Shown: positions 48,901-54,084 of the stretch, in pieces
Layout: each line of letters starts with the position of its first letter
Numbering within the stretch: position 1 is the first letter of the stretch
NCBI RefSeq assembly: GCF_039542385.1
Contig: NZ_BAABIA010000003.1
Location: forward strand, 434,001-498,000
Length of the DNA: 64,000 nt
Direction of reading: 5' to 3'
Source of the DNA: Prosthecobacter algae
GTDB lineage: Bacteria; Verrucomicrobiota; Verrucomicrobiia; Verrucomicrobiales; Verrucomicrobiaceae
Notes under the pieces: model-generated
Told to the model about the DNA's origin: nothing
What the model saw: only the letters and a program-made list of their open reading frames with translations
Databases searched by the model: none
Program-made: the position numbers and the translations under genes

Positions 48901-50046
48901 ATGCAGATGCAAAAGCGCCAATTTTTTGTTTTAGGGGCCATCGGACTTCTTGTTTCCGGCCTGACCGGCTGCAACAAAAGCGGCGGGGACACGATCCTGA
49001 TCGGGGAGTTTGCATCCTTGACCGGCAAGGAGGCCACCTTTGGGATTTCTTCCCACGAAGGCACGATTTTGGCGGTCAAGGAGATCAACGCCGCAGGCGG
49101 TGTGCTGGGCAAGCAACTGGAACTGAAAACGGAGGACGACCAGTCCAAGGCGGGCGAGCCGGCCAACGTGGTGAACAAGCTGATCTCGAAAGACGGCGTG
49201 GTGGCCATCCTGGGCGAGGTGGCCTCCAGCCGATCCCTGGAAGCAGCACCCATCTGCCAGCAGAACGGAGTGCCGATGATCTCCCCGGCTTCCACCAATC
49301 CCAAAGTGACCGAAACTGGCGACCATATTTTCCGGGTCTGTTTCATCGATCCCTTCCAGGGGACGGTGATGGCGAACTTTGCCACCAAAACCCTGAACGC
49401 CAAGAAAGTGGCTGTCTTCACCGATGTGAAGAGCGATTACAGCAAGGGTCTCGCCAAATTCTTCAAGGAAGGCATTGCCAAAGCAGGTGGCCAGGTGGTG
49501 GCCGAACTGGATTTCAACGGTGGCGACAAGGACTTTAAGGCTCAACTCACAGCCATCAAGACCGCCGGACCGGACGCTGTTTTCATTCCCGCCTATTATA
49601 CAGATGTGGCTCTGATCTGCATCCAGGCCAAGCAACTGGGCATCAGCATCCCCTTCCTGGGCGGTGACGGCTGGGAAAGCCCTACCCTTATCGAAATTGG
49701 CAAAGATGCCGTCGAGGGGCACTACTTCTCCACCCACTATTCTGCGGATGCCGGCACGCCCAATGTACAGAACTTTGTGGACTCCTACAAAAAGGAATAT
49801 CAAGGCAAGGTGCCTGACGCCATGGCCGCCCTGGGTTACGACTCTGCCATGTTCCTTGCGGATGCCATCAAGCGCGCCAACTCCACGGAGCCTGGCAAGA
49901 TCCGGGAAGCCCTCGCAGCCACGAAAGAATTTGAAGGTGTGACGGGCAAAATGGCCATCAATGCACAGCGCGATGCGGTGAAATCAGCCGTGATCCTGCA
50001 GGTCAAAGGTGGCAAATTTACGTTTGTGGAAACCGTGAACCCCTAA
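48901..50046 (+). CDS. livK: Branched-chain amino acid ABC transporter substrate-binding lipoprotein
   Basis: A 381-residue periplasmic binding protein of the Leu/Ile/Val type (Peripla_BP_6): two lobes, with IGEFASLTGKEATFG at the first, VVAILGEVASSRSL and SPASTNPKVTETG in the hinge region. A lipobox LTGC ends the signal at residue 24, so it is predicted to be membrane-anchored. A second ATG at 48907 is also possible. First gene of a livKHMGF operon; a gene-free stretch with a repeat element separates it from livH. Confidence 0.93.
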   Translation: MQMQKRQFFVLGAIGLLVSGLTGCNKSGGDTILIGEFASLTGKEATFGISSHEGTILAVKEINAAGGVLGKQLELKTEDDQSKAGEPANVVNKLISKDGVVAILGEVASSRSLEAAPICQQNGVPMISPASTNPKVTETGDHIFRVCFIDPFQGTVMANFATKTLNAKKVAVFTDVKSDYSKGLAKFFKEGIAKAGGQVVAELDFNGGDKDFKAQLTAIKTAGPDAVFIPAYYTDVALICIQAKQLGISIPFLGGDGWESPTLIEIGKDAVEGHYFSTHYSADAGTPNVQNFVDSYKKEYQGKVPDAMAALGYDSAMFLADAIKRANSTEPGKIREALAATKEFEGVTGKMAINAQRDAVKSAVILQVKGGKFTFVETVNP

Positions 50047-50048
50047 GT

Positions 50049-50184
50049 GCTGATAGCCGGGAATCGATGGTGAAGGGGCTGAACCAGCAAATCCGCCCGT
50101 TCTTCATGAATCCCGGCATGCGCATCCCACCAGCCCGTCTGCCCTTTTAAGGCCCCCAGCAATCAACGCTCAACCTTCAACTTC
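50049..50184. repeat. Gene-less repeat element between livK and livH (related to 52808-53370)
   Basis: The left part (50050-50083) matches the left arm of the cassette at 52809-52842 at 26 of 34 positions, counted by eye. The right part (50162-50181) matches the right arm region at 53344-53363 at 17 of 20. The two parts face each other in inverted orientation, but with weaker arm-to-arm identity than the second copy. The middle, about 70 bp, holds only a 14-codon ORF (50106-50150). Likely a decayed or non-coding copy of the same element. Confidence 0.6.
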
Positions 50185-50186
50185 CT

Positions 50187-51098
50187 CTGGACTGGTTTCT
50201 TCAGCAACTCATCAACGGCCTCGCTCTGGGTGCGATCTATGCACTCATCGCGCTAGGTTACACGATGGTCTATGGCGTGCTGCGGTTCATCAACTTCGCG
50301 CACAGTGATGTGCTGATGCTGGGGGCCTACTCGGCCTACTTTCTGGCTCCTGCGGTGGAAAAGGTGGCTCCCCTGCCCTCCGTCACCGGGGCGGTGATCG
50401 TGGTGCTGCTTTCGGCCATCATCTGCGCAGGGATCGGCATGCTGATCGAGTTTCTCGCCTACCGCCCGCTGCGATCCCGGCCAAAGCTGACGGTGCTGAT
50501 CACTGCCATCGGGGTGTCCCTGTTCATTGAGTACACCTGCCAGCACAAGGCCGTGTTTGGCGCAGACACCAAGCCGTTCCCTCGGCTGCTGGGAGAAAGC
50601 GACCTCCACCTCGGCGGCTTGGTCATCGGCAGCAACGACCTGCTGGTCCTGGGGGTGACGGTACTGCTGCTGGCGGGCCTGTGGTTCATCGTCCAGCGCA
50701 CAAAGATCGGCACCGCCATGCGGGCGGTTTCCTTCAATCAGCAGGCGGCGGCGCTGATGGGCATCAACATCAACCGCATCATCTCCTTCACCTTCGGGCT
50801 GGGCTCTGCGCTCGCCGCCATCGCCGGGATTTTGTATGCAATCAAAGCTCCGGGGATTGATCCCCTGATGGGTGTCCAGCCAGGGCTTCGGGCCTTTGTG
50901 GCGGCAGTCTTGGGCGGCATTGGCAATCTGCCAGGCGCGGCACTCGGTGGACTGTTGCTGGGGCTGCTGGAAACCTTTGCCGGGGGCACCCCCGGACTTT
51001 CGAATTACCGGGACGGCATCGCCTTTGCCATCCTGATCCTCATCCTTTTGTTCAAACCTGCCGGCCTGCTCGGCAAAGCCACGGTGGAAAAAGTATGA
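50187..51098 (+). CDS. livH: Branched-chain amino acid ABC transporter permease LivH
   Basis: An integral membrane permease with about eight helices. Homology to LivH starts at DWFLQQLINGLALGAIYALI, which lies upstream of the first ATG (50265), since the frame is open from 50151 after a TAA at 50148. There is no ATG, GTG or TTG in that stretch; a CTG at 50187 is the best non-standard start and gives 303 residues. Conserved GYTMVYGVLRFINFAH and the EAA-like segment RTKIGTAMRAVSFNQQAA are present. Its stop overlaps livM by 4 bp. See the finding on the missing start. Confidence 0.88.
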   Translation: MDWFLQQLINGLALGAIYALIALGYTMVYGVLRFINFAHSDVLMLGAYSAYFLAPAVEKVAPLPSVTGAVIVVLLSAIICAGIGMLIEFLAYRPLRSRPKLTVLITAIGVSLFIEYTCQHKAVFGADTKPFPRLLGESDLHLGGLVIGSNDLLVLGVTVLLLAGLWFIVQRTKIGTAMRAVSFNQQAAALMGININRIISFTFGLGSALAAIAGILYAIKAPGIDPLMGVQPGLRAFVAAVLGGIGNLPGAALGGLLLGLLETFAGGTPGLSNYRDGIAFAILILILLFKPAGLLGKATVEKV

Positions 51099-52030
51099 CC
51101 TCCATGAATGGCGCAAAACGCTGGCTGCTGGCTGGCATCATCCTGGCCGTGGTCGTGTCCCAGTTCTCGGGGCAGTTCAACCGCTACTACCTGGGCATCC
51201 TCGTTGACATCGGTATCAACATCATTCTGGCCGTGAGCCTGAACCTGATCAACGGCCACACAGGCCAGTTCAGCCTTGGCCATGCCGGTTTCATGGCAGT
51301 GGGCGGCTATTCAGCGGCCAAGTTCACGCTGGTGGTGGCCCCGATGGTTCCGGAAAGCCTGCAGCCGCTGCTGTTCCTGGTGGCGCTGATCCTGGGTGGC
51401 CTGCTGGCGGCCCTGGCTGGCGTGGCGGTGGGTGTGCCCTCCCTGCGGCTGCGAGGTGACTACCTGGCCATCGTGACACTCGGCTTTGGCGAAATCATCC
51501 GTGTGGTGGTGCAGAACATGGAGAGCGTGGGCGCTGCCAGCGGGCTGAAAGGCATCCCCAAGGAAACGACGCTGGGCTGGACCTTTGCCCTCGCCGCCAT
51601 CACCATTTACGTCGTCGCTGCATTGGTCAATTCCACCTATGGCCGCGGCTTCATCGCGGTGAATGATGATGAAGTGGCCGCTGGCTCCATGGGCATCAAT
51701 CCCGTGCGCTACAAGGTGACCGCCTTTGTCATCGGTGCCTTTTTTGCCGGCATCGCCGGGGGGCTTTATGCGCATCACAAGCAGTTCCTTTCGCCGACAG
51801 GTTTCGACTTTTTGAAGTCCATCGACATCGTGGTCATGGTCATCCTCGGCGGCATGGGCCGCACGGTGGGGGTGATCATTGCAGCCATCCTGCTGACTCT
51901 TCTACCTGAGGTGCTCCGGCAGTTTGCGGACTATCGCATGATCATTTACGCCCTGCTGATCATCGGACTGATGATTGCCCGTCCGCAGGGCCTGTTCACC
52001 TTTGGCAAACGGAAAGGAGCGGCAACATGA
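51095..52030 (+). CDS. livM: Branched-chain amino acid ABC transporter permease LivM
   Basis: A 311-residue permease with about nine helices and the LivM pattern: LNLINGHTGQFSLGHAGFMA near the start, GDYLAIVTLGFGEIIRV in the middle, and the EAA-type loop AVNDDEVAAGSMGINPVRYK. It pairs with LivH to form the channel. Four-base ATGA overlaps join it to both livH and livG, so the three genes are translationally coupled. Confidence 0.95.
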   Translation: MTSMNGAKRWLLAGIILAVVVSQFSGQFNRYYLGILVDIGINIILAVSLNLINGHTGQFSLGHAGFMAVGGYSAAKFTLVVAPMVPESLQPLLFLVALILGGLLAALAGVAVGVPSLRLRGDYLAIVTLGFGEIIRVVVQNMESVGAASGLKGIPKETTLGWTFALAAITIYVVAALVNSTYGRGFIAVNDDEVAAGSMGINPVRYKVTAFVIGAFFAGIAGGLYAHHKQFLSPTGFDFLKSIDIVVMVILGGMGRTVGVIIAAILLTLLPEVLRQFADYRMIIYALLIIGLMIARPQGLFTFGKRKGAAT

Positions 52031-52812
52031 GCAGCCCTCTCCTCCAAATGGACAAGGCCACCATCCGCTTTGGCGGCCTGACGGCCGTCTCTGAGTTGAG
52101 CCTGAGCATCGGCCCCCATGAACTCGTGGGCCTCATCGGCCCCAATGGCGCGGGCAAAACCACGGCCTTCAACCTCATTAGCGGTGTGTATAAGCCCACT
52201 GACGGGCAGATCCATTTCAATGGAAAGCGCGTGTGCGGACTGAAGACTCATCAGCTCACGAATCTGGGTATCGCGCGCACCTTTCAAAACATCCGCCTGT
52301 TCGGTTCCCTGAGCGTTTTTGACAATGTGCGGGCCGCCACCCAGTTGCACCGCAGTCACGGCATCATCAATGCCCTGTGGCGCGGCAAGGGATTCCTTCA
52401 CAGCGAAAGCGAAGTGGAAAAAGAGGTGCTGGAGCTTCTGGACATTTTTGACCTGCGGCGCCTGCGTGATGAAGATGCCAAGAGCCTGCCCTACGGCGAC
52501 CAGCGCCGGCTGGAGATCGTGAGGGCGCTGGCCACCCGGCCCAAGCTGCTGCTGCTGGATGAACCAGCCGCCGGGATGAACCCCACGGAGAAAGAGGAGC
52601 TGATGTACCTCATCCAGTTCATCAAAGACAAATTTCAAATCGCCATCCTGTTGGTCGAACACGACATGAAAGTGGTGATGGGCATCTGCCAAAAGATCGC
52701 CGTGCTGGAGTACGGCAAAAAGATCGCCGAAGGCACACCTGAACAGATTCAAAAAGACCCAAAGGTGATCGCCGCCTACCTGGGCACTGAAGATGAAGGT
52801 GCCGAAAGTTGA
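52027..52812 (+). CDS. livG: Branched-chain amino acid ABC transporter ATPase LivG
   Basis: A 261-residue ATPase: Walker A GPNGAGKT, Q-loop FQNIRLF, signature region LPYGDQRRLEI (a YGDQ form usual in LivG), Walker B LLLLDEPAAGMNPTE and H-loop LVEHD. ATGA overlap with livM. Its stop codon (52810-52812) lies inside the left inverted-repeat arm of the cassette that follows, so the final residues may have been altered by the insertion. Confidence 0.95.
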   Translation: MSSPLLQMDKATIRFGGLTAVSELSLSIGPHELVGLIGPNGAGKTTAFNLISGVYKPTDGQIHFNGKRVCGLKTHQLTNLGIARTFQNIRLFGSLSVFDNVRAATQLHRSHGIINALWRGKGFLHSESEVEKEVLELLDIFDLRRLRDEDAKSLPYGDQRRLEIVRALATRPKLLLLDEPAAGMNPTEKEELMYLIQFIKDKFQIAILLVEHDMKVVMGICQKIAVLEYGKKIAEGTPEQIQKDPKVIAAYLGTEDEGAES

Positions 52813-52837
52813 TGGTCGGGAGTTGATGGTTGATGGG
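52808..52837. repeat. Left inverted-repeat arm of the four-helix-bundle cassette
   Basis: A 30-bp arm built of GTTGATGG-type units. It matches the reverse complement of the right arm (53341-53370) at 24 of 30 positions, counted by eye. It contains the livG stop codon. Confidence 0.7.
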
Positions 52838-52855
52838 CTGAAACTCGCGAAACTT

Positions 52856-53215
52856 ATGTTTAACTTTGAGAAACTGGAAGTCTGGCAAAAGGCGATTGAG
52901 TTCGCTGATCTGGTTTACAGCCAGACGCGAGACTTCCCCGCCGACGAACGGTTTGGGCTAACCAACCAAATGCGCCGCGCCTCCGTTTCCATTTCTTCAA
53001 ACATTGCCGAAGGTTCTTCACGGTTCTCCAAGAAAGATTTTGCTCGATTCATCGAGATCGCCTGTGGCTCTGTCTTTGAAGTGGTCTCCCAGTGTTTTAT
53101 TGGCCGGAATCAAGGATTCCTCTCCTCAGAGCAATTCGAAATCCTCTATCATTCCACCGAGCAGCAGGGCAAGATGCTCAGCGGACTCCGCCGGTCTTTG
53201 CTTGAAGAAGCCTGA
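52856..53215 (+). CDS. Four-helix-bundle protein (23S rRNA IVP-like family)
   Basis: A 119-residue all-helical protein: FEKLEVWQKAIEFADLVY, then RDFPADERFGLTNQMRRASV, SISSNIAEGSSRFSKKDFAR and the C-terminal helix QQGKMLSGLRRSL. This is the four-helix-bundle family first named for ORFs in 23S rRNA intervening sequences; it is also related in fold to Avd of diversity-generating retroelements. Biochemical function is not established. Start is ATG at 52856; a start inside the repeat arm would add residues. It is bracketed by inverted repeats and interrupts the liv operon between livG and livF. Confidence 0.9.
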   Translation: MFNFEKLEVWQKAIEFADLVYSQTRDFPADERFGLTNQMRRASVSISSNIAEGSSRFSKKDFARFIEIACGSVFEVVSQCFIGRNQGFLSSEQFEILYHSTEQQGKMLSGLRRSLLEEA

Positions 53216-53340
53216 TGACCCTTGCGACCCTATGAGCCTCTTAGCCAACCAGAGAATTCTCCCGCAGGTCATGAACTCATGCCGTATGATGAACATTCAG
53301 ACCCAGGATGCTTTTGGGAAGACTGCGTTTAGTGACTCCG

Positions 53341-53370
53341 TCTATCAACCCTCAACTCTCAACCATCAGC
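53341..53370. repeat. Right inverted-repeat arm of the four-helix-bundle cassette
   Basis: A 30-bp arm with TCAACC-type units, the inverted counterpart of 52808-52837. It ends 6 bp before the livF start codon, so it replaces or overlays the usual ribosome-binding region; no Shine-Dalgarno motif is seen there. The 125 bp between the IVP-like gene and this arm hold no recognised feature. Confidence 0.7.
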
Positions 53371-53376
53371 CTGCTT

Positions 53377-54084
53377 ATGCTTGAGATCCAAAACCTCGAA
53401 GTCTCCTATGGCTCCATCAAGGCCCTGCATGGCATCTCGATGAAGGTGCCGGAGAAGTCCATCGTCACGCTCATCGGCGGCAACGGGGCGGGCAAGTCCA
53501 CCACCCTGCGTACCATTTCCGGTTTGGTCAAAGCACGCGCGGGCAAGGTGATCTATGACGGCGCGGACATCACCAACCTGCCTCCGCATCAAATCGTGGG
53601 CCGCCACCTCTGCCACGTGCCGGAGGGGCGCATGGTGTTTGCCAATCTGACCGTCCTGGAAAACCTGAAGATGGGGGCCTATCTGCGCCATGACCGGGCA
53701 GGCATTGCCGAGGACATCGAGTATTCGTTCAATGTCTTCCCACGCCTGAAAGAGCGCATCAGCCAGCACGCGGGGACGCTATCCGGCGGGGAGCAGCAGA
53801 TGCTCGCCATCGCCCGGGCCCTGATGAGCCGCCCCCGCTGCCTGATGCTGGACGAGCCTTCTCTGGGCATCGCGCCCATCCTGGTCCGCGCTATTTTCAA
53901 ACAGATCGTCGCCATCAACAAGGAGCGTGGCATCACCATCCTGCTGGTGGAACAAAATGCCAACCTCGCTCTCGGCATCTCCCATTACGGCTATGTGCTG
54001 GAGACAGGAAAAGTCCTGCTGGAAGATGAGGCCAAAGCCCTGAGGCTGAATCCGCAGGTGCGCGAAGCCTACCTGGGTGACTGA
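53377..54084 (+). CDS. livF: Branched-chain amino acid ABC transporter ATPase LivF
   Basis: A 235-residue ATPase with Walker A GGNGAGKST, Q-loop, signature LSGGEQQML, Walker B CLMLDEPSLGIAP and H-loop LVEQN; the Gln in place of His after Glu is usual in LivF. It would complete the livKHMGF transporter that takes up leucine, isoleucine and valine. The ATG at 53377 is the family start. It is separated from livG by the four-helix-bundle cassette, so its expression may depend on read-through or a new promoter there. Confidence 0.95.
   Translation: MLEIQNLEVSYGSIKALHGISMKVPEKSIVTLIGGNGAGKSTTLRTISGLVKARAGKVIYDGADITNLPPHQIVGRHLCHVPEGRMVFANLTVLENLKMGAYLRHDRAGIAEDIEYSFNVFPRLKERISQHAGTLSGGEQQMLAIARALMSRPRCLMLDEPSLGIAPILVRAIFKQIVAINKERGITILLVEQNANLALGISHYGYVLETGKVLLEDEAKALRLNPQVREAYLGD

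Follow-up and report, generated by a model that had tools for sequence, protein, structure and literature searches.

The window (the whole stretch of DNA analysed here, 64,000 nucleotides long) comes from a genome of 6.12 Mb and contains a livKHMGF operon, which is the setting of the spacer discussed below. This 140-bp spacer separates livK from livH, and 2.7 kb downstream of it an IVP cassette is located between livG and livF. The relevant features are the following:

48901-50046, + strand: livK, binding protein (PF13458, 3.4e-68)
50047-50186, + strand: livK-livH spacer, a putative gene-less remnant, 140 bp from the livK stop to the inferred livH start
50051-50083, + strand: left arm of the spacer, 26/33 against the cassette left arm at 52810-52842, ungapped
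50056-50117, + strand: predicted RNA hairpin of the spacer, covering most of the left arm (from the fold of 50047-50120)
50082-50110, + strand: interior stretch of the spacer, 21/29 against the 3' non-coding part of the cassette at 53247-53275
50162-50181, + strand: right arm of the spacer, three TCAAC heptads directly 5' of livH, 17/20 against the cassette right arm at 53344-53363
50187-51098, + strand: livH, permease (PF02653), with an inferred CTG start and no in-frame ATG, GTG or TTG before 50265
52806-53376, + strand: IVP cassette between livG and livF, consisting of left arm, IVP gene and right arm; the arms pair
52859-53215, + strand: IVP (four-helix-bundle) gene (PF05635, 7.2e-37; TIGR02436, 1.7e-34)

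The inferred CTG start of livH is common to the window and its nearest relative, G019 (LivH 91%), and by eye neither livH nor livF of the window is preceded by a Shine-Dalgarno sequence. In some Limisphaerales-like loci (the set of L121, L123, L144 and L157) livH apparently starts with ATT or ATC. The closest LivH proteins in our genome contig collection (86-88%) belong to Verrucomicrobial records, e.g. Brevifollis gellanilyticus and MAGs labelled Prosthecobacter debontii or Phragmitibacter. Rfam gave no match at E <= 1 within 49900-53500. The IVP protein of the window obtains weak scores with Avd models, and a passage of PMC10053308 likens PF05635 to the Avd protein of diversity-generating retroelements.

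Our data imply that the spacer and the cassette are similar beyond chance. An earlier note on this DNA had matched the left part of the spacer to the cassette left arm in 26 of 34 positions and the right part to the right arm in 17 of 20, with a short interior of about 70 bp that lacks an IVP-like gene. The measured counts are 26/33 on the left and the same 17/20 on the right, the arms are 78 bp apart, and no remnant of an IVP peptide was found in the spacer (best score 24 at a shuffled mean of 24.6, 115/200 shuffles as good). Both spacer arms have the same order and orientation as the cassette arms. The arms were scanned on both strands of 464 kb of the window genome (the window and 20 stretches of 20 kb; 926,656 positions). 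A left-arm match of at least 25/33 occurred in the cassette itself (33), in the cassette right arm when read on the opposite strand (26), in the spacer at 50050, in a heptad array at C17:25064 (L195, one match) and in L194 on C14 (one match). Left matches of at least 20/33 joined to right matches of at least 14/20 on one strand, 40-700 bp apart, form six pairs in these 464 kb, and every one of these belongs to the two elements of the window; relaxing the thresholds to 18/33 and 13/20 raises the number to 47, including pairs that lie elsewhere. A search for three TCAAC heptads, one mismatch being allowed, gave 15 matches at seven separate places in the 6.12 Mb, and the reversed-pattern control gave none. 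The paired-arm scan and this control therefore place the similarity beyond chance, and in the 464 kb it exceeds that of random intergenic regions, the comparison on which the earlier note had staked its reading when it proposed a genome search with both arms. The interior contributes a putative and weak match: its 21/29 is the best of 926,824 positions apart from itself, for a stretch picked after the alignment had been inspected and with an unbiased p of approximately 0.004-0.01.

Such arms appear to belong to the IVP element. In the window cassette they pair at -48.0 kcal/mol (shuffled mean -22.3), and the predicted fold of the whole cassette (z -3.10) has them paired around the gene. Arm similarity follows IVP identity among 36 cassettes (626 pairs, r 0.71, 0/2000 permutations) and still does once the 76 pairs with common host flanks are set aside (554 pairs, r 0.39, 0/2000 permutations); the arms track IVP relatedness at unrelated sites too. 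One such site is L196 (G300:C115), where an IVP 71% identical to that of the window has matching GTTGAT arms and is followed by a gene that we take to be sdhB (succinate dehydrogenase iron-sulfur subunit). An inverted-repeat test of 33 IVP loci (those with loci reported rather than all matches, without the below-cut-off L005) gave p <= 0.05 in 16 of the 33 and not in the other 17, the window cassette being at 0.06; its control, the flanks of other loci, is inflated because the loci share arm families. PF05635 genes are common, with at least one above the cut-off in 49 of the 56 genomes searched. The notion that the cassettes are specific to liv operons was rejected, as the other IVP genes of the window genome and that of G300 lie elsewhere. 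Long heptad arrays without an IVP gene are present on C14, C16 and C17 of the window genome (L008, L011, L015, L016, L018), and a GC-rich palindromic repeat is seen several times by eye alongside them.

Elements of this kind occur at the same junctions in other liv loci. A LivH scan of the genome contig collection gave 66 loci, of which 55 were measurable at livK-livH and 54 at livG-livF. In locus L112 the livK-livH junction contains a cassette whose arms are of the same family and whose IVP has 71% amino acid identity to that of the window, and the livG-livF junction contains a gene-less element of 110 bp whose GTTGAT arms pair. The locus is thus the mirror image of the window, with the gene at livK-livH and the gene-less element at livG-livF, and each of its two elements finds its best match in the other (left 28, right 26). 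The record names of L112 and L156 look doubtful, the contigs being from MAGs named 'Akkermansia muciniphila' and 'Zoogloea sp.' that bear Verrucomicrobial liv operons. At L157, too, livK and livH are separated by a cassette of this arm family, with an IVP 69% identical to that of the window. The flanks of its arm ends would join to an ATG for livH, and RNA excision restoring a 'split start codon' was considered and rejected: the short-spacer loci L121, L123 and L144 are also without ATG, GTG or TTG and have ATT or ATC, and livF of L112 lacks these codons, likewise that of L139 and L126, where the spacers are 50 and 19 bp. The livK-livH spacer of L111, a locus from another clade, is 129 bp long with a fold z of -1.93, and its ends resemble by eye the arm type with an 11-base repeat.

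Junctions of the same operon also contain another type of four-helix-bundle insert, whose heptad arms are A-rich: it is found at L138 and L157 and probably also at L133, L137 and L150. The livG-livF inserts of L133, L137, L150 and L138 are 437-444 bp long with A-rich ends, and in L138 three junctions are occupied, namely livH-livM (by a gene-less insert), livM-livG and livG-livF. The frames at livG-livF and livM-livG of L138 and at livM-livG of L157 are TIGR02436/PF05635 proteins; the protein-family test covered L138 and L157, and the inserts of L133, L137 and L150 were likened to those of L138 by eye. A sequence-blind scan of the 66 liv loci (601.5 kb) gave 16 heptad arrays and 8 inverted pairs; shuffled sequence gave 3 arrays and 0 pairs. 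Four of the pairs have 369-402 bp between the arms (L112, L138 twice, L157), three are gene-less with 40-75 bp (L112, L138, L161), and the eighth spans two neighbouring cassettes. Since this size class of 40-75 bp emerges from a sequence-blind scan, a gene-less class of heptad pairs exists, and the 78-bp interior of the putative window remnant is close to it. The scan is strict and misses both window elements, the livK-livH cassette of L157 and the inserts of L133, L137 and L150; the window spacer is missed because its arms are too decayed. Applied to the 464-kb sample of the window genome, the same scan detected 10 arrays, and its only inverted pair is that of L195, with the arrays 747 bp apart. 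An exact gene-less pair pattern, strict enough to miss the window's own two elements, was found in 0 of 285 class genomes, and at gene spacing in 1 of the 285, at one place, with an IVP 71% identical to that of the window.

The comparison with relatives, which the earlier note had proposed, gives the spacer a history. Among the nine relatives compared, seven have a short livK-livH spacer of 12-46 bp (G003, G010, G005, G008, G043, G036, G053), G037 has one of 87 bp and G019 one of 122 bp, as against 140 bp in the window. At livG-livF the genes overlap by 8 bp in G019, G003, G010, G005, G036 and G053, the gap is 33 bp in G043 and 50 bp in G037, and G008 ends before the junction; the 564-bp insert occurs in the window alone among the operons with a readable junction (absent in 8/8 relatives). 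Because G019 shares the expansion at livK-livH and not the cassette, the expansion looks older than the livG-livF cassette in the window operon. A tree of 50 operons groups the window with G019 at 0.989, and these with L112 and its sister at only 0.65; this sister, L120, which is from the same genome as G043, has a short livK-livH spacer. The spacer of G019 keeps a 12-bp motif of the right arm, and the left arm was not found in it. The two spacers align weakly, 1/500 shuffles being as good globally and 24/500 locally.

We turn now to the RNA that the spacer would form. Its arms are not complementary to each other (132/500 shuffles as good), with an arm duplex of -18.7 kcal/mol and a shuffled mean of -18.6. 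The earlier note had suggested a fold of the interior; run on the spacer, this check predicted a hairpin of 62 nt in the left half, starting 9 nt past the livK stop. The 74-nt stretch 50047-50120, chosen after a first fold, has -32.5 kcal/mol and z -3.92 (0/200 shuffles as good), and the whole spacer z -1.78 (10/200). No terminator-like site is present in the spacer, the single such site being within livH.

One could argue that this hairpin is an ordinary intercistronic one of the malE-malF type, for which no relic origin would be needed. Such a hairpin would block 3'-5' exonucleases, so that livK mRNA outlasts livHMGF, and the arm likeness would be due to chance or convergence. According to passages of PMC5927463, the binding-protein gene is the stabilised one in E. 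coli ABC operons, where hairpins without a U tract behind this gene protect its mRNA; the prediction for the window likewise has a stable hairpin without a U tract after a binding-protein gene. Spacers of at least 60 nt are also commonest at livK-livH (17/61 operons, compared with 9/68, 4/61 and 7/59 at the other junctions), and 4 of these 17 have a local hairpin z below -2. However, 2 of 7 long livG-livF spacers are below -2 as well, therefore strong hairpins are not special to livK-livH. Furthermore, the z of the whole spacer is modest, G019 has no such hairpin in its spacer (z +1.24), and chance or convergence would have to account for two arms that match in order, a joint match that is unique in the 464 kb. 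Thus we regard an ordinary hairpin as a serious, albeit rather unlikely, explanation.

It is improbable that only the right part of the spacer derives from an element, as a stand-alone heptad array before livH beside an unrelated hairpin. Arrays without an IVP gene do occur elsewhere in the genome, the right motif is all that G019 shares, and a portion of PMC4679880 describes direct heptamer repeats before start codons in Beggiatoaceae; the left arm, with its 26/33 and its position, speaks against this explanation. The right arm of the spacer fits the wider arm family (scores 11-17). The left arm scores 19 against the window cassette, in a likeness that includes non-heptad bases, and 7-10 against the two L112 elements and those of L157 and G300; the left arms of these four and of the window cassette score 13-28 among themselves. 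Gene conversion between the livK-livH spacer and the livG-livF cassette (or the left end of this cassette), in either direction and in the lineage of the window, would explain a left arm that resembles the window cassette alone and is absent from G019, and has a parallel in the mutual best matches of L112, but we consider it very improbable, and any such copying was not recent because the left arms differ at 7 positions in 33 bp.

On balance we lean towards the spacer being a gene-less remnant of a heptad-armed IVP element, which now perhaps serves as an intercistronic hairpin. It has similar arms in the order of such a cassette, though neither their inversion nor the IVP gene. The decayed gene-less copy proposed by the earlier note agrees with the long spacer of the window and G019 and with the cassettes that L112 and L157 have at this junction, and it is weakened by the unpaired arms, by the lack of the left arm in G019, and by finding neither an IVP remnant in the spacer nor a second copy of it in the genome. 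Its further claim, two insertions of one family in one operon, gains from these same cassettes and from the gene-less livG-livF element of L112, and loses from a spacer left arm unlike those of L112, L157 and G300. The main doubt lies in this left arm, whose likeness is specific to the neighbouring cassette and is missing in G019 despite the shared expansion; the hairpin could be an ordinary one.

A remnant of this kind would fit the following scheme. The full-length element would consist of two inverted heptad arrays enclosing a four-helix-bundle (IVP) gene and would occupy the gap that runs in an operon from one gene's stop codon to the following gene's start codon. Once transcribed, the arms of an intact copy are predicted to form a long stem that encloses the gene, in the manner of the 23S rRNA intervening sequence (IVS). 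In the spacer the gene would have been lost and the arms left unpaired, and the left half would form a local hairpin right after livK, a possible barrier to 3'-5' mRNA decay that would favour livK over livHMGF. That a gene-bearing copy once occupied the spacer or gave rise to it is our inference, as are the mobility of the element and this action of the hairpin.

A wider generalisation can be offered tentatively, as a possibility that is less likely than not: mobile heptad-armed four-helix-bundle cassettes would be mRNA counterparts of the 23S IVS, which insert after the stop codon of an operon gene and ahead of the next start codon, duplicate inside the same operon and, on losing their gene, leave behind hairpins that shift the proportions of the operon's products, with the window and L112 as reciprocal stages. 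To our knowledge, no role has been assigned to PF05635 genes outside rRNA. If mobile stem-forming cassettes do enter operons and leave gene-less hairpins, PF05635 genes would acquire a setting and a testable effect, namely the stoichiometry of operon products, and their cassettes would be a source of new intercistronic RNA structures. We found no description of heptad-armed four-helix-bundle cassettes between operon genes in the open PMC literature, which omits most subscription journals and therefore lends weak support to novelty.

Several known systems invite comparison. The spacer resembles a MITE in being a short gene-less relative of a larger element with inverted ends, and the livG-livF copy of L112 has the shape of a MITE. 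Unlike MITEs, which come in several near-identical copies, the window spacer stands alone in its genome (a BLAST search with all of it gave nothing better than E 0.75 besides itself), its ends are not terminal inverted repeats, and no transposase is known for its parent; by eye, a comparison of the window and G019 brought out no clear target-site duplication. A MITE family was therefore rejected, and the 'MITE-like' label of the earlier note finds no support. The TAACTGA-type heptamers of Beggiatoaceae (PMC4679880) are similar in that seven-base arrays lie just before a start codon at which no Shine-Dalgarno sequence is seen. As far as the available part of that source goes, they are single direct arrays of one heptamer, whereas here there are inverted pairs of arrays with varying heptamers, often with an IVP gene; the same part mentions no such gene, and '23S rRNA' and 'intervening' occur in it 0 times. 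The malE-malF type hairpins, as described in passages of PMC5927463, share with the spacer a hairpin directly after a binding-protein gene and without a terminator-like site, though the spacer hairpin is a predicted one and is not conserved in G019. Finally, the 23S rRNA IVS of Coxiella burnetii, in the portion of PMC4990558 that describes it, is an element of 428 nt with an IVP/S23 gene and ends that form a stem. The elements of the window differ from it in lying between mRNA genes and not in rRNA (the spacer is between livK and livH, outside any 23S rRNA gene) and in having heptad arrays as ends, and the spacer has neither gene nor pairing ends; yet the window cassette, of a length similar to that given in this portion, likewise holds an IVP-family gene inside inverted, stem-forming ends.
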